Source: a virus. Taken from it: DNA of 20,097 nt. Location: positions 1 through 20,097 of IMG/VR virus record IMGVR_UViG_3300032087_001247; one strand, 5' to 3'. The notes under the pieces are model-generated. The model worked only from the letters and a program-made list of their open reading frames with translations, was not told the origin of the DNA and searched no databases. Positions 53 through 20,054 of the stretch are shown here, one piece after another (within the stretch, counting starts at the first letter, position 1; the number at the start of each line of letters is the position of its first letter). Position numbers and translations under genes: made by a program.

Positions 53-403
53 TTATTTCTCTGCATACCAGCGCAGTAACTCCGCCTGTACGTAGGCCTT
101 ATAGCTTAGAAGCGAAGTAGGCACGGCAGTTATAGCCTTGTCTAGCGTCGCGCTCTTTCTATTGTGGCAGCTGTGGCACAGGCTCTGCCAGTTTTGCGGC
201 TCATAGAATAGCGAAGGATCTATACGTACTGGTACGCTGTGGTCTACTACTTCGGCCGCCCTGTTACATACTTCGCAAAGCGGGTTAGACTTTAAGAAAG
301 CTGTGCGGGCAGCTCTCCAGGTGCGGCCGTTATATCTGCTGTCCTGGTAGCGCCTGCCCTGCTGTGCTGGTCTGTTTCGTTTTGGCCTGGGTAAATACGG
401 CAT
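53..403 (-). CDS. HNH endonuclease, phage packaging type
   Basis: This 116-residue protein has the zinc-finger HNH fold. CEVC at residues 43-46 and CHSC at 76-79 form the zinc knuckles; D54-H55, N71 and H80-N81-K83 are the HNH positions. The N-terminus is rich in Arg and Lys, suiting DNA binding. Small HNH proteins of this kind in cos phages (HK97 gp74 is the model) work with the terminase in cleaving packaging sites. The start is the ATG at 403, directly after the TAA of the upstream 56-residue ORF. In HK97-like genomes this gene lies beside the cos site next to the small terminase gene. Here it is last in transcription order, while the small terminase is at the opposite end of the window, as if the genome were opened at cos. 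Family assignment is firm; the packaging role is inferred. Confidence 0.9.
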   Translation of the reverse strand: MPYLPRPKRNRPAQQGRRYQDSRYNGRTWRAARTAFLKSNPLCEVCNRAAEVVDHSVPVRIDPSLFYEPQNWQSLCHSCHNRKSATLDKAITAVPTSLLSYKAYVQAELLRWYAEK

Positions 404-574
404 TTAGGTAAGTGTTAGCTCTGTTATCTCAAATTGTTTGCGCTGCTGCCAAATGCTGTCCAGTAGCTGCCTGTGTGCTTCTGCTACGCTGCGCAGCTGG
501 CAGGCCATTTCAAGCCGGGGCAGCTCTCCGTCTGTATGGCTCCACAGTACGTAAACTTTCTGCGTTTCATCCAT
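404..574 (-). CDS. Unrecognised 56-residue protein upstream of HNH gene
   Basis: A short ORF fills the gap between the 198-residue gene and the HNH gene. It begins MDETQKVYVLWSHTDGELPR and ends ITELTLT. The ATG overlaps the preceding gene by 8 nt, and the TAA is immediately followed by the HNH start codon, so its boundaries fit translational coupling on both sides. It has no membrane segment or cysteine motif; the second half (RSVAEAHRQLLDSIWQQRKQ) looks helical and amphipathic. I do not recognise the family. The exact fit between neighbours is the main argument that it is real. Confidence 0.6.
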   Translation of the reverse strand: MDETQKVYVLWSHTDGELPRLEMACQLRSVAEAHRQLLDSIWQQRKQFEITELTLT

Positions 575-1163
575 TGCCCGTGCCTTTGTCTTCGGGTGCT
601 ACTTTGTCTAGGTAGTCGCGCAGCCTGGTACCGCTACCGCGTTTGCCTTGCGGCTTATATACTATGCTAGCCGTTTCTACTCCTTGCGGCAGTCCCCTAG
701 CAGGTTGCGGCCTGTGTACCTGCTCTAGTAAATAGCTGCGTTCCTCTTCATGCTTACAGGCAAAGCGCGCTAGCTCTTCCGTCTTTAGTCGCTCGTAGAT
801 TTTATAGCGATCGCCGTACTGCTTAGCGTAGTAGCCGTGCCGTACTCTGTACAGTACTAGCATCCATTCCTGTAGCGTGAACGCCGGAAACTGGTCTACT
901 AGATACCGGGCGCACTCTGCTAAAGCTTCCGCGCCTTGTATACTCTTATTAGCGTCTACATATTTGCAGGTGCTATCTATCATAGCTGCCAGCGCCATAG
1001 TAGTTTGCGCTGGTGCCAGCCTGTAAGCTGTCCGTACGTTAATACCCTTAGCGAAGGCGTCGCTAGGTGTTAGGTCTGCGGGTTGCGTTTTGGATAGCTC
1101 GCGTAAGGTCTGTGCTACTAACTCCGGTGTAGCCTTTACTCTTTGTAGTCCTGTTGTATTCAT
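567..1163 (-). CDS. Unknown 198-residue protein in helicase-loader position
   Basis: A soluble, mostly helical protein. The middle (about residues 80-145, from EALAECARYLVDQ through FTLQEWMLVLYRVRHGYYAK and GDRYKIYERLKTEE) has the pattern of a family seen beside initiators in Bacteroidota phages and mobile elements, for which I know no proven function. The C-terminus is basic and probably disordered. The ATG at 1163 lies inside the initiator gene, giving a 101-nt out-of-frame overlap; the next in-frame ATG is over 50 codons later. Its position directly after an initiator containing iterons matches lambda P after lambda O, so a helicase-loader role is a reasonable guess from context only. There is no Walker A motif, so it is not a DnaC-type ATPase. 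Confidence 0.8.
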   Translation of the reverse strand: MNTTGLQRVKATPELVAQTLRELSKTQPADLTPSDAFAKGINVRTAYRLAPAQTTMALAAMIDSTCKYVDANKSIQGAEALAECARYLVDQFPAFTLQEWMLVLYRVRHGYYAKQYGDRYKIYERLKTEELARFACKHEEERSYLLEQVHRPQPARGLPQGVETASIVYKPQGKRGSGTRLRDYLDKVAPEDKGTGNG

Positions 1164-1812
1164 ATTGTTGCTGTCTTTTAATCCATTGGCTAGCGGCAGC
1201 CGCCCAGCTCTTCATACTGTTGCGTCCTACCTTCCAGCCGTTAGCTTCGTAATAGTTCCAAAAGTCTTCGGCCATGCTAGCAGGATCTGCTACCAGCTTG
1301 CTTGCAAAAAAACTTTCTACCGCCTCAATAGATTGCGGGCGCGCTTTATTCTCTTTGGTATGTTCTGTGTTTTGTTCTATTGTATTATTATTCCTCAGCT
1401 GGTTGTGGGTAGTAGCCTCAGCTGGTTGCGGGTAGTGGCCGTAACTGGTTCCGGGTGCCTGCCTCAGCTGGTTGCGGGTGGTGGCCTCAGCTGGTTGCGG
1501 GTGCTCCCATTGTTCAAAGCATTGCACGGCCATAAGCCTACTACGTTTCTTACCCGTGTATTCAGTCCAGCGCCTAAGGTGTCCCGCCTCTACTAAAAGC
1601 TTAAGCGCCTTCTCTATTGCGCTGCTGCTTACGTTACATAGCTCTGCTAAGTGTTCGTTAGATATAAAGCAGGGCAGCCCGTTTCTTTGAAAGCTGCGAA
1701 CTTCGAGCAGTATAACTTTCTGCGTAATACTTAGCGTAGTGTCTTGCCATAAGGCAGCAGGAAACCAAATACCTTGAAAGTCCCGGCCGTTATCTGTTAA
1801 AGTCGTTTTCAT
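1063..1812 (-). CDS. Winged-helix replication initiator (lambda O / DnaD-like)
   Basis: The N-terminal ~100 residues form a winged-helix DNA-binding domain: the stretch from ITQKVILLEVRSF through NEHLAELCNVSSSAIEKALK to LLVEAGHLRRW reads as the recognition helices and wing. A low-complexity Gln/Asn/Thr linker follows, then a C-terminal domain (FWNYYEANGWKVGRNSMKSW and following) of the type found in phage initiators and DnaD/DnaT relatives that contact helicase or its loader. The ATG at 1812 is chosen over the TTG nine bases upstream. It overlaps the 79-residue gene by 23 nt. The linker is encoded by five 23-bp iterons, so the gene appears to contain its own origin. It probably binds these repeats, melts the neighbouring AT-rich DNA and recruits the host helicase. 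Confidence 0.8.
   Translation of the reverse strand: MKTTLTDNGRDFQGIWFPAALWQDTTLSITQKVILLEVRSFQRNGLPCFISNEHLAELCNVSSSAIEKALKLLVEAGHLRRWTEYTGKKRSRLMAVQCFEQWEHPQPAEATTRNQLRQAPGTSYGHYPQPAEATTHNQLRNNNTIEQNTEHTKENKARPQSIEAVESFFASKLVADPASMAEDFWNYYEANGWKVGRNSMKSWAAAASQWIKRQQQYEYNRTTKSKGYTGVSSTDLTRAIQNATRRPNT
1345..1392. other. AT-rich candidate DNA unwinding element
   Basis: Directly abutting the iterons is a 48-base stretch in which I count 11 G or C (about 23%), against roughly half in the surroundings. It encodes the Asn/Thr-rich part of the initiator linker. In lambda-type origins an AT-rich block beside the iterons is where the strands first open; the same role is inferred here. Confidence 0.6.
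1393..1507 (-). repeat. Five tandem 23-bp iterons: probable replication origin
   Basis: Five head-to-tail 23-bp units start at 1393, 1416, 1439, 1462 and 1485 with exact spacing. The plus-strand core is cctcagctggttgcgggt plus five variable bases. Units 2, 4 and 5 share the full core, unit 1 differs by one base, and unit 3 is divergent. Because 23 is not a multiple of three, consecutive units are read in different frames (PQPAE, RNQLR, GTSYG), so conservation is at the DNA level. Iterons inside an initiator gene, next to AT-rich DNA, are the arrangement of the lambda origin. I infer that these are the initiator binding sites. Confidence 0.8.
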
Positions 1813-2029
1813 CCCAGCCAAGACGTTTGCCCCAAACTGTTTTTAGTTCGGTCATGGTTAGGTGAAAGCGTCGCCTGCGTGCAGCCTCGTAAATCCCTGC
1901 AGCTGCTCTTATATCTTTGTCTAATACTTTGGCGCGTAGGCTGTGCCTGCCGTACTGCTGGCGTAGCGTATGCCTTTCCTGGATCAAAAGTAAAAGCTTC
2001 TGCCTGTACTGCGTTAACTCTTCGTTCAT
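1790..2029 (-). CDS. Unknown 79-residue basic coiled-coil-like protein
   Basis: A small, charged, mainly helical protein. Residues 1-60 are rich in Leu, Arg, Lys and Glu, including YRQKLLLLIQERHTLRQQYG, and could form a coiled coil; the C-terminus ends GWDENDFNR. No known family is recognised and there are no cysteines or membrane segments. The ATG forms an ATGA overlap with the stop of the resolvase-like gene, and its end overlaps the initiator gene by 23 nt, so it is embedded in a tightly coupled operon between a nuclease and the initiator. A DNA-binding or accessory replication role is possible but unsupported. Confidence 0.7.
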   Translation of the reverse strand: MNEELTQYRQKLLLLIQERHTLRQQYGRHSLRAKVLDKDIRAAAGIYEAARRRRFHLTMTELKTVWGKRLGWDENDFNR

Positions 2030-2394
2030 TCCGGTTCGTTACTGCAAATAGGGCAGCGCTTAGCGCGCTCGTACAATTCGACCAGCTCGACAAAACTTTC
2101 CAGCGGCATACTAATAGTAATGCCTTTACGGTTGCGCTTGTGTGCGACCAGGCGCACGCTATGGCGCGGGTGCTTAGGCATGCGCTCAAGCAGGGCGTGT
2201 ACGTCCATACTTTGTTCAACTGCCTTACATTGTACCAGGTAGCGCCCTGCGTTAACAAGGTCGACGCCTGCCGCGTCCAGCTCTCTATTACAGCTCCTGC
2301 TAGTTTTGCAATGGACGTAGCCCAGGCGCCTAAAGATGTCCCGCACGTATAGTTCGAAAGCATGTCCCTTTTTACGTCCGTTTATTTGTGCCAT
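2026..2394 (-). CDS. PD-(D/E)XK nuclease, Holliday junction resolvase-like
   Basis: This 122-residue protein has the archaeal-Hjc-style PD-(D/E)XK arrangement: E14 in GHAFELYVRDIFRRLGY, D45 in AAGVDLVNAG and the QCK triad at residues 55-57 in RYLVQCKAVE. Such nucleases cut branched DNA; in phages they resolve recombination or replication intermediates before packaging. Length fits the minimal fold. The C-terminus ends with CPIC, a lone cysteine pair that could be half of a zinc site. It overlaps the exonuclease gene by 13 nt and the next gene by 4 nt. Its place after a RecE-like exonuclease supports a recombination role. The fold is likely; the exact substrate is inferred. Confidence 0.75.
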   Translation of the reverse strand: MAQINGRKKGHAFELYVRDIFRRLGYVHCKTSRSCNRELDAAGVDLVNAGRYLVQCKAVEQSMDVHALLERMPKHPRHSVRLVAHKRNRKGITISMPLESFVELVELYERAKRCPICSNEPE

Positions 2395-3137
2395 GCTGGT
2401 AGATCCAAGGTAACAGCGTCGCCCTGGTCGTAATAGTCATAGCCTAACAAGGGTGCGCCCGCTGTGTACGTTTTGCACCAATTTAAAAACATTCTAGCCT
2501 CTAAGCGTGCTGCTTTAACACCTGCCGCAACCATAGCAGGCGTAGGGGCGTAAACGCATACAGTATGGGGCGCGTTTGGATCTACGCAAACCCAGTACAA
2601 TTCTACAGGCTCCGGCAGCGCCAAACTGTATAGCGCTAACTGCATGTGGTACTGTGCGTCTAATACAGTACGCAGGAACTTGTTAGGCTCCGGGTTAGTT
2701 ACTTTAAGATCTAACAGCACGCCGTTACCGTACGCGTCCGGGTAGCCGTGCATACGTAAGCCTTCACAGTCCCAGGTTAAGTGCTGCTCTTTGTATTCTG
2801 CGCGCTCTAGCAGCCTGGCCGCTGTCCTGTGCTGTAGTACGGCGTCTGCGATCGCTTGCGCTTCGTCTAGCTCTTTCTGTAGTACTGCCCATTCCCCGTG
2901 CTGCTGTTCTGCTTCCTTGAAAGCTTTTGTGCTGCGCGTGCTGGCGTCTATTACTTGCACCTTTGCCATTTCGTGCGGCTCTAATACCATACGGTGTACC
3001 AGTGTACCGCGCCGCATAGCTGGACTACTTGTGTACTCGCTCTGCTTATAGTGTACGAAGTGCGCAGGACTTTTAGCGAATTGCTTTAAGCCGCTGAAGC
3101 TTACCGGCCATGCGTCGTAAGGGTTGTAGCTATTCAT
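2382..3137 (-). CDS. RecE/DUF3799-like PD-(D/E)XK exonuclease
   Basis: A 251-residue protein resembling the C-terminal nuclease of RecE (Exo VIII) and the phage DUF3799/YqaJ-like exonucleases. Visible elements are MRRGTLVHRMVLEP with H48, GYPDAYGNGVLLDLKVT with D134, D143 and K145 (the PD...DxK core), and the downstream YHMQLALYSLAL helix with Q166. These enzymes resect double-stranded DNA 5' to 3' to give 3' overhangs for single-strand annealing. The ATG at 3137 overlaps the 97-residue gene by 8 nt. The usual partner, a RecT/Erf/Bet annealing protein, is not recognisable nearby, although an SSB-like gene is two genes upstream. Confidence 0.85.
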   Translation of the reverse strand: MNSYNPYDAWPVSFSGLKQFAKSPAHFVHYKQSEYTSSPAMRRGTLVHRMVLEPHEMAKVQVIDASTRSTKAFKEAEQQHGEWAVLQKELDEAQAIADAVLQHRTAARLLERAEYKEQHLTWDCEGLRMHGYPDAYGNGVLLDLKVTNPEPNKFLRTVLDAQYHMQLALYSLALPEPVELYWVCVDPNAPHTVCVYAPTPAMVAAGVKAARLEARMFLNWCKTYTAGAPLLGYDYYDQGDAVTLDLPAWHK

Positions 3138-3423
3138 ATTGCTGCAGTGTGTTATATCTTCCGTCGTTAGTTAGTGCGTATAGTCCCGCCTGGCAGCGTT
3201 CCGCTTTTTTCCATGCTGCTTCGCGCTCTTCAGGCTCTCGTAATTCTGCAAAGTCGTATAAGTGTCGGCGCCGCATTTGTTTAAGCATGCACTCTAAGCT
3301 TACTAGATCTGCGTCTTTTGCTTCTAGGCTGCAGCTTACTATATCTGCTAACGGTACTATTAAGCCGGACTGCAAAGCCTGCAGTACTTCAGAAAGGGGT
3401 GCTGCTGTCTTTTGCTGGCTCAT
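3130..3423 (-). CDS. Unknown 97-residue protein between SSB-like and exonuclease genes
   Basis: An acidic to mixed-charge helical protein containing LSEVLQALQSGLIVPLADIV and an REPEEREAAWKKAERCQAG segment. I do not recognise the family. The ATG at 3423 lies 35 nt inside the end of the SSB-like gene in another frame, and its own end overlaps the exonuclease start by 8 nt, so it is coupled to a recombination operon on both sides. It is too small and unlike RecT/Bet to be called an annealing protein. Confidence 0.75.
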   Translation of the reverse strand: MSQQKTAAPLSEVLQALQSGLIVPLADIVSCSLEAKDADLVSLECMLKQMRRRHLYDFAELREPEEREAAWKKAERCQAGLYALTNDGRYNTLQQYE

Positions 3424-3934
3424 GGGTAAGCACGTTTTTAGGTTGCGTAAAAGGGTTGTCGTTAGTGAACAGCTTAGTAAGGTCTACGCTAGTACGGAAG
3501 TACTCCGCTGCTTTTTGTATACCTGCGTCTGCTTCTGTTCGCGCTCCAGGCTTTACAAACCAGCGCGTACTAAGGCCAGCGCCCTTGCGCATAATAACTA
3601 AATCGTACTCGAAAGGGTGGCCTTCAGCTTCTATAATTTGCTGCATGTCAAGCAGTACGCTTTTAGTGCTACACATGTAAATTTTACTGCTGCCGCTTTC
3701 GTAGTGCCATACGCCCAAAGCTGCAAAAGGCTTAGGCCTTTCGTCTAGCTCGTTTACTCTGTCCGGTGCTGGTTCGTTAATAGGCCAGCGCAGCGGCTTT
3801 TTATCGTCCCATACTTCCAGGCCTTCCAGGGGCGCGCTAATAATTCGCACGGTAGCCGTTTCGTTTGGCGCGATCTTCAGGTAGTTGTTCGTACCGCTTT
3901 CGCTGGCTTCGTAGCTATTCTTAAAAAAAGACAT
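3389..3934 (-). CDS. Single-stranded-DNA-binding-like protein
   Basis: About 181 residues from the ATG at 3934. The N-terminal half (NNYLKIAPNETATVRIISAP then GLEVWDDKKPLRWPINEPAP) has the layout of gp32-like phage proteins: a compact beta-rich domain with a conserved Trp and a KPxRxP segment. The C-terminus EPAKDSSTPF resembles the acidic xxxPF tip by which bacterial SSBs dock replication partners. First gene of the replication and recombination operon, upstream of an exonuclease and resolvase, as expected for an SSB. The frame stays open upstream to a TTG at 4048, but that extension looks non-protein-like and runs through a hairpin. The assignment rests on pattern and context, not on a definitive motif. 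Confidence 0.6.
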   Translation of the reverse strand: MSFFKNSYEASESGTNNYLKIAPNETATVRIISAPLEGLEVWDDKKPLRWPINEPAPDRVNELDERPKPFAALGVWHYESGSSKIYMCSTKSVLLDMQQIIEAEGHPFEYDLVIMRKGAGLSTRWFVKPGARTEADAGIQKAAEYFRTSVDLTKLFTNDNPFTQPKNVLTHEPAKDSSTPF

Positions 3935-3946
3935 TTGTAAAGGTTT
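3935..3946 (-). promoter_or_regulatory. AAACCT leader of the SSB-like gene
   Basis: On the minus strand AAACCT stands six bases before this ATG, in the position of a ribosome binding site but without Shine-Dalgarno similarity. The same hexamer is 7-8 bases before the major tail protein ATG and the internal capsid ATG. It supports the choice of the ATG at 3934. Confidence 0.45.
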
Positions 3947-3993
3947 AGTGCCTTGCGGCTGTGTTTCTTGTTCAGGCCATTGCATAAGCAGGC

Positions 3994-4018
3994 AGCGGCT
4001 GTTACAAAGGTTGCCGCT
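3994..4018. promoter_or_regulatory. Inverted repeat in the early operon leader
   Basis: A perfect 6-bp inverted repeat (AGCGGC / GCCGCT) with a 13-base spacer lies 60 bases upstream of the SSB-like start. On the minus strand the spacer contains AACCTTTG, one mismatch from the Bacteroidota -7 consensus TAnnTTTG, at 4005-4012. A T-rich run follows on the plus strand, but no plus-strand gene exists to terminate. It could be an operator over the promoter of the replication operon. This is tentative. Confidence 0.3.
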
Positions 4019-4053
4019 TTTGTTTGTTCCTTTAACACTTACAGCCAAGTAGA

Positions 4054-17980: not shown

Positions 17981-18178
17981 TCACAATTTAAGGCGCCGCC
18001 TAGCTGCTAAAAAGTTTTGGTACTCGCTAAACCTACGCCGCCCGTATTGCTGTAAGTGTAGCTGCTCTGTAGCCTCGTACGCCTCGCCTCTGTATATGTG
18101 TGTCTGCAGCATCTTATTAAAGACCCGTACAAAGCTTGCCGCTGTAGCTCTATCGCAGGTAAAAGTTATAGTGTCCAT
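17981..18178 (-). CDS. Unknown 65-residue basic protein between terminase and portal
   Basis: A small basic protein starting MDTITFTCDRATAASFVRVF, with a C-terminal half of Arg-rich helix (YGRRRFSEYQNFLAARRRLK). There is no membrane segment. I do not recognise a family. It overlaps the large terminase gene by 13 nt, which supports its being translated. The charge pattern suggests nucleic-acid contact, and the position suggests a packaging accessory, but both are guesses. Confidence 0.65.
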   Translation of the reverse strand: MDTITFTCDRATAASFVRVFNKMLQTHIYRGEAYEATEQLHLQQYGRRRFSEYQNFLAARRRLKL

Positions 18179-19710
18179 ATTTCAAATGTTTCCGGCTCTG
18201 TGTCCTGTTCCTGCTCGCTTTGGCCTAATGCCATTATAGAAGCTATTACGGCGTCTATCATTTCGCCCGCTTTGTTTCTGTTCTTTGTTGGTTTGATATT
18301 GTCGGCCGGGTCGCGTGCGATCTTTACGCATGAAAACTGCCAGCGCAGTACTTCGTTACCGCCGTGGACTAGATCGCCGCCGACTAGTAAGCGCTCTAAC
18401 ATTTTGGTAGGGTGCGAAAGGCTTAAAAAGCCCTGTCCGAAAGGCTGAAGATTTACGCCAGCTTCTAACAGCTTAGGAACTATATACGCGCTAAATTTTC
18501 TGTCGTACGCTACAGCTCGAATACTGAAGCGTTCGGCCTGTTCTAGTATATACTGCAGTATTACGTCGTAGTCTACTACGTTGCCGGGTGTTATAGTCAT
18601 GTCGCCAGCGTCTGCAAATTGCCTGTACTTTTTGCGCTCTGCAGCTGTGGCCTGTGGTACAAAGCTATGCGCCCGTAGGTAGTACGTCTGTCCGTCGCGC
18701 CATACCATAGCAAACGCTGTAAGGTCGCGCGTACTGGCTAAGTCTAAGCCTGCCCAGCACGGTAGCCCCTGCAAATAGTCGTCAGCTGGTAACGGGTCTG
18801 CGCCTCGCATTACGTCGTGGTCTTGTAGCCAGGCGTCTTGCTGTGCGTCCGTCCATATATTCAGGTGCAGCCGCTGGAAGGTGTACAGCTCGCTAGGTTG
18901 CTGGTTTATCTTATTTACGTACGTTTCGAAGTAGCTACGGCTGCAGGTAGTCCCTAAGCCTGGGTTAGCCTTAGCCCATACTTCCGGGTCTGTCCAGTCG
19001 TCCGTAGGTTCGGCGCAGTACAGCACAGGTAAAAAAGTTTCGTCTTTTATTTCGCCGCTTTTAACCTTTCGGGCGTATTCGTGGACTTCAAAGCCTATGC
19101 CGTTTACGTCGTCGCCCGCTGTAGTTAGTGCCAGTATAATAGGCTGGCTGCGGCTAAGCACGGAAGTACCTAATACGTCCCATAGATCCCGCCCGCGTTT
19201 CTGCGCGTGCAGTTCGTCAAATATTACAGCGCTGCAGTTATAGCCGTGTTTAGTATTGCTTTCCGCGCTAATGCTTTGGTAGAAGCTACTGCCGTACTTT
19301 ATGCGGCTTTGTAAGATCGTGCAGCGCCTGGCTAGCTCCGGGCTGTTTCGGATCATGTCGGACGCTATTTCGTAAATAATACGCGCCTGCCCTCGATCTG
19401 CTGCAGCGCTAACTATTTCCGCGCCTTTTTCGCCGTCTGCTAAAAGCAGGTATAAGGCTAAGGCTGCTGCTAGGCTGCTCTTTCCGTTTTTACGTGGTAT
19501 TTCTACGTAGCACGTTTTATAGCGGCGTTTACCTGTTTCGCTAACCTTAGTGCCGAACAGCGGGTGCAGTATGTCTTTTTTTTGCCAGTCCTCAAGTATA
19601 AACGGCTGGCCTGCTAAGTCTCCTTTTGTATGCGTGCAGAAAGTTTCTATAAACTCTACTACCCGGTTAGCTGCTGCTTCGTCGAAGTAATATTTTTCTG
19701 TATGGCTCAT
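18166..19710 (-). CDS. terL: Terminase large subunit (HK97/Terminase_1 family)
   Basis: The 514-residue DNA packaging motor and nuclease. In the N-terminal ATPase, IPRKNGKSSLA (residues 71-81) is Walker A and SAVIFDELHAQ is Walker B with D165-E166; ILALTTAGDDVN is the coupling motif. In the C-terminal RNase H-like nuclease, GLDLASTRDLTAF (D323), AVAYDRKFS (D403) and GEMIDAVIA (D486) supply the metal ligands. It pumps DNA through the portal and cuts the concatemer. It starts in an ATGA overlap with the small subunit gene. All catalytic residues appear intact. Together with the HNH gene, the family favours cos-type packaging, but the end type cannot be proven here. Confidence 0.96.
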   Translation of the reverse strand: MSHTEKYYFDEAAANRVVEFIETFCTHTKGDLAGQPFILEDWQKKDILHPLFGTKVSETGKRRYKTCYVEIPRKNGKSSLAAALALYLLLADGEKGAEIVSAAADRGQARIIYEIASDMIRNSPELARRCTILQSRIKYGSSFYQSISAESNTKHGYNCSAVIFDELHAQKRGRDLWDVLGTSVLSRSQPIILALTTAGDDVNGIGFEVHEYARKVKSGEIKDETFLPVLYCAEPTDDWTDPEVWAKANPGLGTTCSRSYFETYVNKINQQPSELYTFQRLHLNIWTDAQQDAWLQDHDVMRGADPLPADDYLQGLPCWAGLDLASTRDLTAFAMVWRDGQTYYLRAHSFVPQATAAERKKYRQFADAGDMTITPGNVVDYDVILQYILEQAERFSIRAVAYDRKFSAYIVPKLLEAGVNLQPFGQGFLSLSHPTKMLERLLVGGDLVHGGNEVLRWQFSCVKIARDPADNIKPTKNRNKAGEMIDAVIASIMALGQSEQEQDTEPETFEIWTL

Positions 19711-20054
19711 GCAGGCGTAAAAAAGCTGTCTGCTGCTGTAGGTAGTTCGATGCTGTCAAGCGCTAAGCTTTTGCGCATCTGCCTAAGCTCTTTGCGTAGA
19801 TCGCAAAGCTGCTGGTACTCCGGTCGCTGTCTGCTGTAGACGTCGCCGCTTTTGCCAGTTACTAGGTAGGTAGTACGGTTTTCGTTTACGAACTTTTGTA
19901 ATTCGCGCATTTCGTCTACCATACATGCCATGTCCGGAAGCATAAGCCTTTCGAGGTGCGTAAGCTCTCTGCCCTGGGTTAGCTGTTCTGTTAGTTCGTC
20001 CAGTATATCTAACTGGCGCTGTGTCATGTGGTGCGTTATCATGTTGTTCTGCAT
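19707..20054 (-). CDS. terS: Terminase small subunit (P27 family)
   Basis: A 115-residue helical protein. TQRQLDILDELTEQLTQGRE opens it, and GDVYSRQRPEYQQLCDLRKE followed by LRQMRKSLALDSIELPTAAD is the C-terminal signature of the P27-like small terminases, which bind the packaging site and load the large subunit. The first ATG at 20054 is preceded by AAAGGG two bases away, unusually close; the ATG four codons later (20042) would have a longer spacing and is an alternative start. It overlaps terL by 4 nt. First gene of the late block in this window. Confidence 0.85.
   Translation of the reverse strand: MQNNMITHHMTQRQLDILDELTEQLTQGRELTHLERLMLPDMACMVDEMRELQKFVNENRTTYLVTGKSGDVYSRQRPEYQQLCDLRKELRQMRKSLALDSIELPTAADSFFTPA

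Follow-up and report, generated by a model that had tools for sequence, protein, structure and literature searches.

A candidate lambda-like replication origin of dyad iterons within the initiator gene of a phage record and its homologs

Gene organization of the window

The stretch of DNA analyzed here (the window) is the whole of virus record G000, a linear sequence of 20,097 bases. Its features of interest lie on the minus strand and comprise a gene for an HTH_36 protein, a DUF6633-like gene overlapping its 3' end, and a recombination and replication gene set upstream of it (2026-4048):

53-403, minus strand: HNH endonuclease gene, at one end of the record
567-1163, minus strand: DUF6633-like gene (198 aa), overlapping the 3' end of the initiator gene; candidate helicase loader
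1063-1812, minus strand: initiator gene (249 aa from the ATG at 1812), encoding an HTH_36 winged-helix replication initiator
1141-1338, minus strand: part encoding the helical C-terminal domain (residues 162-227), a candidate partner-binding domain
1522-1737, minus strand: part encoding the winged-helix DNA-binding domain (residues 29-100, counted from the TTG)
2026-2394, minus strand: RusA-like or Mrr_cat nuclease gene
2382-3137, minus strand: exonuclease VIII-like gene
3389-4048, minus strand: single-strand-binding protein gene (weak match)
18166-20054, minus strand: terminase genes, at the opposite end of the record

HNH endonuclease and terminase genes are usually adjacent. Their separation over the two ends of the record, together with a relative (G002, 21,043 bases) that is cut at a similar place, suggests that the record may hold almost the whole of a circularly permuted genome of approximately 21 kb. 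The intergenic positions 31-46, close to the first base of the record, consist of C runs (ccccccc ttc ccccc). Since the neighbors of the terminase are scattered over many hosts, all at less than 60% identity, no host was assigned.

The initiator and its downstream partner

The initiator start was selected by comparison with the L005 homolog, whose open reading frame begins MKQIGTD; an alternative TTG start at 1821 would add three residues. The N-terminal domain matches the Pfam HTH_36 profile above its cutoff (32.3 bits vs. 25, residues 29-82), as do all 42 homologs analyzed below, and several PHROG replication-initiation families match the protein; phrog_15768 matches residues 135-225. These profiles agree with an earlier note, made from the sequence alone, which had called the gene an initiator. 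In an AlphaFold model built on the alignment of the 42 homologs, the winged-helix domain (blocks with pLDDT 89-97) and the C-terminal helical domain (blocks mostly with pLDDT 95-97) are separated by a linker predicted to be disordered (residues 116-155, pLDDT <50). The iterons and AT-rich block described below cover the codons for approximately residues 108-159, and therefore the DNA element sits where the structural demand on the protein is least.

Structural neighbors of the model in the PDB include the DnaD N-domain (2v79, Z 9.5) and the RepA plasmid initiators 4pql (Z 9.2), 4pt7 (8.8), 4pta (8.2), and 5kbj (8.4); being tied with many other winged helices, these matches support the fold only. 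A search by sequence found no relative of the initiator with a solved structure, and RepA_N was absent among the Pfam matches listed for the window protein and the 42 members (25 of 27 families). Phage_rep_O (PF04492) scores 18.4 bits on the window protein, below its curated cutoff of 28.7, and matches 11 of the 42 homologs, each time weakly, while hhalign of the family alignment against lambda O gave a probability of 0.1%, that is, no detectable homology. On these two grounds, membership in the lambda O family by sequence was rejected. The claim of the earlier note that the phage is unrelated to lambda by its proteins thus holds for sequence, but not for profiles, by which the initiator and lambda O are both O-like initiators.

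A homolog of the overlapping partner gene lies downstream at 36 of the 42 loci, and DUF6633 is matched by 26 of the 33 aligned members, the window copy giving no match. In related isolates, the initiator is followed by a gene with the annotation replication protein P, DnaC-like loader, AAA ATPase, or DnaB. The DUF6633-like protein is a candidate helicase loader by virtue of its lambda P-like position; the call is by position only, as fold searches gave no informative match (Foldseek E >1; VIA Z <8). The matches listed for its model include no loader, a result with which a loader identity is still compatible, and no mention of DUF6633 was found in the literature searched. By eye, genes resembling DNA cytosine methyltransferases and sigma factors were noticed downstream of the initiator pair in L010 (1536-2549) and L006 (4793-5314).

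The iteron array and the AT-rich block

A tandem-repeat search (TRF) of the whole window placed a 23-bp array of 4.8 copies at 1393-1503, with a score of 145 compared with 63 for the runner-up. Five units span 1393-1507, starting at 1393, 1416, 1439, 1462, and 1485; an 18-base core is common to four of them, the 1393 unit having one change, and the outlier at 1439 has four positions changed compared with the others. Since 23 is not a multiple of three, the units fall in rotating frames and encode different peptides. In reading direction, the iterons come first and the AT-rich block follows directly:

1485-1500, minus strand: iteron 1, CCGCA-accagc-TGAGG
1462-1477, minus strand: iteron 2, CCGCA-accagc-TGAGG
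1439-1454, minus strand: iteron 3 (divergent), CCGGA-accagt-TACGG, with the right arm of the CCGTA/TACGG relatives
1416-1431, minus strand: iteron 4, CCGCA-accagc-TGAGG
1393-1408, minus strand: iteron 5, CCACA-accagc-TGAGG, adjoining the AT-rich block
1345-1392, minus strand: AT-rich block, a candidate unwinding element (48 bp, 22.9% GC, A-rich on the coding strand); GC drops past the array across the family

The exact 23-base spacing, the four nearly identical cores, the rotating frames, and the 48-base stretch of about 23% GC had all been described in the earlier note, and each was found again here. The note had overlooked the minus-strand reading order, which puts the iterons ahead of the AT-rich block as in lambda gene O, and also the inverted repeat: every unit is a 16-bp imperfect dyad (4/5 arm pairs), mostly CCRCA-N6-TGAGG, the coding strand carrying CCGCA-N6-TGAGG three times, CCACA-N6-TGAGG once, and the divergent CCGGA-N6-TACGG once. 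In a scan of the window, four of the 16-base cores matched CCNCANCCAGCTGAGG exactly, and beyond these four no site came within fewer than three mismatches of it. At 1531-1546, two units upstream of iteron 1 and still within the 23-bp register, a degenerate CGTAGTAGGCTTATGG may be what is left of an iteron; at the matching position, the CCGTA-type relatives carry a perfect dyad, CCGTAGAATTTTACGG, which also encodes a conserved RRILR.

Synonymous codon shuffles, which keep the protein and the codon usage, were run on L018, whose initiator is identical to that of the window. The observed 23-bp self-match was 50.6, compared with a shuffle mean of 9.9 (z 14), and none of 100 shuffles reached it; the array is therefore unexplained by protein sequence or codon usage. 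The GC-skew profile shows no turn near 1400 and, the record being a linear fragment of 20 kb, is uninformative on the origin.

Conservation of the array among homologs

A profile search of IMG/VR yielded 493 relatives, 80 of which were kept and, with two further loci, reduced to 42 genes at 90% redundancy. The best self-match period (range 16-40) was 22 or 23 bp in 34 of these, and the arrays mostly occupy the equivalent position in the gene, with different DNA words. In 26 genes, 25 of them with a period of 22 or 23, no codon shuffle reached the observed self-match. Among related initiators, the period is kept and the array sequence changed. The earlier note had named related initiator genes lacking repeats at this point as evidence against its reading. 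This check came out in favor of the reading, as related initiators carry arrays there, except that about a dozen of the 42 (L031, L040, L049, L061, L062, L068, L191, and others) have no clear array, some of these still carrying dyads in register. The same layout with different DNA words appears, from these sequences, to recur in dozens of related phages.

Selection on the DNA, which the earlier note had proposed from the rotating frames, is seen in the codons of residues conserved between homologs: 83% of them (1102/1327) are identical within arrays vs. 62% (6408/10416) elsewhere, with higher identity in the array in 66 of 73 gene pairs (pairs 55-90% identical, sharing members and thus not independent). 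Mean GC over the 50 nt past the array is 29%, compared with 44% in the remainder of the gene (30 genes); the stronger proposal that GC is always lowest in the AT-rich block was abandoned, as it holds in 18 of the 30. Directly past the array, several relatives have 12-bp AT-rich direct repeats of the TACCAATACAAG type:

L007, 3425-3459: 12-bp AT-rich direct repeats
L009, 5375-5400: 12-bp AT-rich direct repeats
L011, 5330-5364: 12-bp AT-rich direct repeats; others occur in further relatives

These repeats encode an Asn/Thr/Ser linker and resemble repeated unwinding elements.

Dyads in phase with the period exceeded the synonymous-codon null in 18 of the 42 genes (0/200 shuffles); a combined p-value was set aside because the genes are related. 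The dyads fall into classes by group, namely CCTCA/TGAGG, CCGTA/TACGG, and CCRCA/TGWGG (including CCACA/TGTGG), with a further group of period 22 and CCGTAAA/CCGAAAG type. In L005/L019, a relative at 67% identity, two units are perfect (CCACA-N6-TGTGG). Registers were chosen with the dyads in view and iterons were selected on the outer C/G and inner A/T positions, so that the two variable arm positions provide a fair test of arm matching. At these positions, arms matched their own partners at 1.36 of 2 (73 iterons, 18 genes, related and thus not independent), compared with 0.84 for shuffled partners, the highest of 2000 shuffles reaching 1.14.

The half-site varies with the recognition helix (SESG with CCTCA, SAST with CCGTA, SSSA with CCRCA, and SRPT with the period-22 CCGTAAA/CCGAAAG type). 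In the tree, each helix/half-site class arose once, with one change per class, and the coupling is therefore confounded with descent; it was rejected as independent evidence and is retained as a lead. Arrays of another type occur in L054 and L085 (AGGCAGCATCGCCAAAATGACG; AGGCAGCATCCCCAAAATGGGG, period 22), with recognition helices APRT and SRNT.

Arrays in bacterial genomes and isolated phages

Significant arrays were found in 13 of 31 HTH_36 homologs from bacterial genomes, and 10 of the 13 have a period of 22 or 23, including Nitrosospira, Arenibacter, Saprospiraceae, Lachnospiraceae, and Bacilli assemblies. Near-perfect dyads were seen by eye in L148 and L116 (AGGGTAGTCAAAATGACTACTC; CCTTTCAAAAAATGAAAGG). 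Similar initiators with arrays also occur in isolated phages. In Pseudomonas phage Skulduggery, a 22-bp array precedes an AT-rich stretch and the gene for a DnaC-like loader; in Oceanospirillum phage GJ44, the array has a period of 23 bp and comes before AT-rich sequence and the gene for an AAA ATPase. The match in Bacteroides phage C3_41T2LP was confined to the HTH, and no array was found in it.

Interpretation and alternative explanations

Repeats, dyads, their conservation, their position over the linker, and the gene order are observed directly in the sequences. With high confidence, we interpret the region as a theta-type replication origin lying within its own initiator gene, and from this anatomy we infer binding, dimer stoichiometry, unwinding, helicase loading, and origin activity. 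In the proposed mechanism, modeled on lambda, the N-terminal winged-helix domain would bind the five dyad iterons, probably as one dimer per 16-bp dyad, the 23-bp repeat corresponding to approximately 2.2 helical turns. Assembly of the initiator on the array would open the neighboring AT-rich block, and the C-terminal domain, together with the overlapping DUF6633-like product, would recruit the replicative helicase of the host. The DNA element would be tolerated within coding sequence because the linker it encodes is flexible.

An initiator bound within its own gene could also block transcription, and its DNA-binding fold is common to MarR-type repressors; the repeats might accordingly be an operator through which the initiator controls its operon, rather than an origin. 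We consider this improbable, given that the site lies mid-gene, in phase with the linker, with an AT-rich block coming after it in most relatives, that the profiles favor replication initiators, and that the adjacent gene in isolates encodes a helicase loader, a P-like protein, or a helicase. Operator activity may nevertheless be a second function of the array. Slightly less credible is a cis site at which a different phage protein would act, for example in packaging or partition. Dyad arrays can serve other proteins, and the initiator as the binder is itself a candidate assignment, but the array keeps to this initiator class across very distant homologs in viruses and bacteria of several phyla, which ties it to the initiator and not to a neighbor.

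Neutral tandem duplication, which slippage could produce and which the close likeness of the window units might suggest, is very unlikely to account for a period that recurs in distant homologs with different sequences and for synonymous sites that are conserved within arrays, and the same low probability applies to a repeated protein motif, since a period that is no multiple of three repeats no motif. Least probable of all are mRNA hairpins, for instance in translation control: the arms are complementary and covary, but compared with dinucleotide-shuffled sequences the window RNA shows no gain in folding stability (z +0.48). The two variable positions hold 47 mismatched cells, of which only 3 read as G-U on the coding strand, and G-A, the most frequent mismatch, is unpaired in either strand.

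HTH_36 initiators of phages and prophages from several phyla could constitute a single system of fixed frame, in which a dyad of roughly 15-17 bp recurs every 22-23 bp of the linker-coding stretch and the half-site is free to change with the recognition helix; we propose this tentatively, at somewhat below even chances. Since protein and target in one gene are inherited together, such a family would be a natural record of a protein-DNA recognition code. The locus and its homologs offer many co-evolved initiator/target pairs from which a winged-helix code could be derived. Origins would become predictable to the base pair from sequence for a large group of uncultured phages, and DUF6633 is singled out as a candidate helicase loader.

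Comparison with known systems

An origin within the initiator gene is the textbook arrangement of lambda, and such origins are already known for lambda, SPP1, pSK41, and p42d repC. The family-wide fixed period of 22-23 bp with changing dyads seems to be new, as no description of it was found in the limited literature searched.

In anatomy, the locus resembles a lambda-type origin, its initiator gene containing dyad iterons and, directly after them, AT-rich sequence. In lambda, O dimers bind iterons that are themselves imperfect inverted repeats, and two of these together with the AT tract are enough for unwinding (PMC7466680). As in the window, the iterons of ori-lambda lie inside the initiator gene O, between the parts encoding the DNA-binding and C-terminal regions, and an A-rich AT tract follows directly, then an overlapping gene. 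The lambda dyads are CCCTC-N5-GAGGG, in four iterons spaced unevenly (20, 24, and 23 bp), whereas the window has five at exactly 23 with another dyad, and a DUF6633-like protein takes the position of P.

In the repABC plasmid p42d, the origin lies inside the initiator gene repC, close to an A+T-rich region, and repC is reported to contain no iterons, unlike the window initiator gene (PMC3155836). In pSK41, representing the RepA_N plasmids, the origin boxes lie centrally in rep and encode a linker dispensable as protein, behind a winged-helix N-domain; the Rep N-domain of pPR9, for which autonomous replication has been demonstrated, is pfam13730 (HTH_36) (PMC5703833), the Pfam family of the window initiator. 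pSK41 differs in being a plasmid, in that its Rep C-domain binds DnaG primase, and in having no described DUF6633 partner. The SPP1 initiator binds direct repeats in its own gene 38 (oriL), beside an AT-rich unwinding element and next to the gene of the helicase loader gp39, and a second origin, oriR, is also present (PMC6316719). The likeness to the window is one of arrangement (repeats in the initiator gene, AT-rich element, and an adjacent loader vs. a candidate loader here), the second origin setting SPP1 apart. The best explanation of the locus is a self-contained initiator/origin module that would work like lambda O/ori, SPP1 gene 38/oriL, and pSK41 rep.
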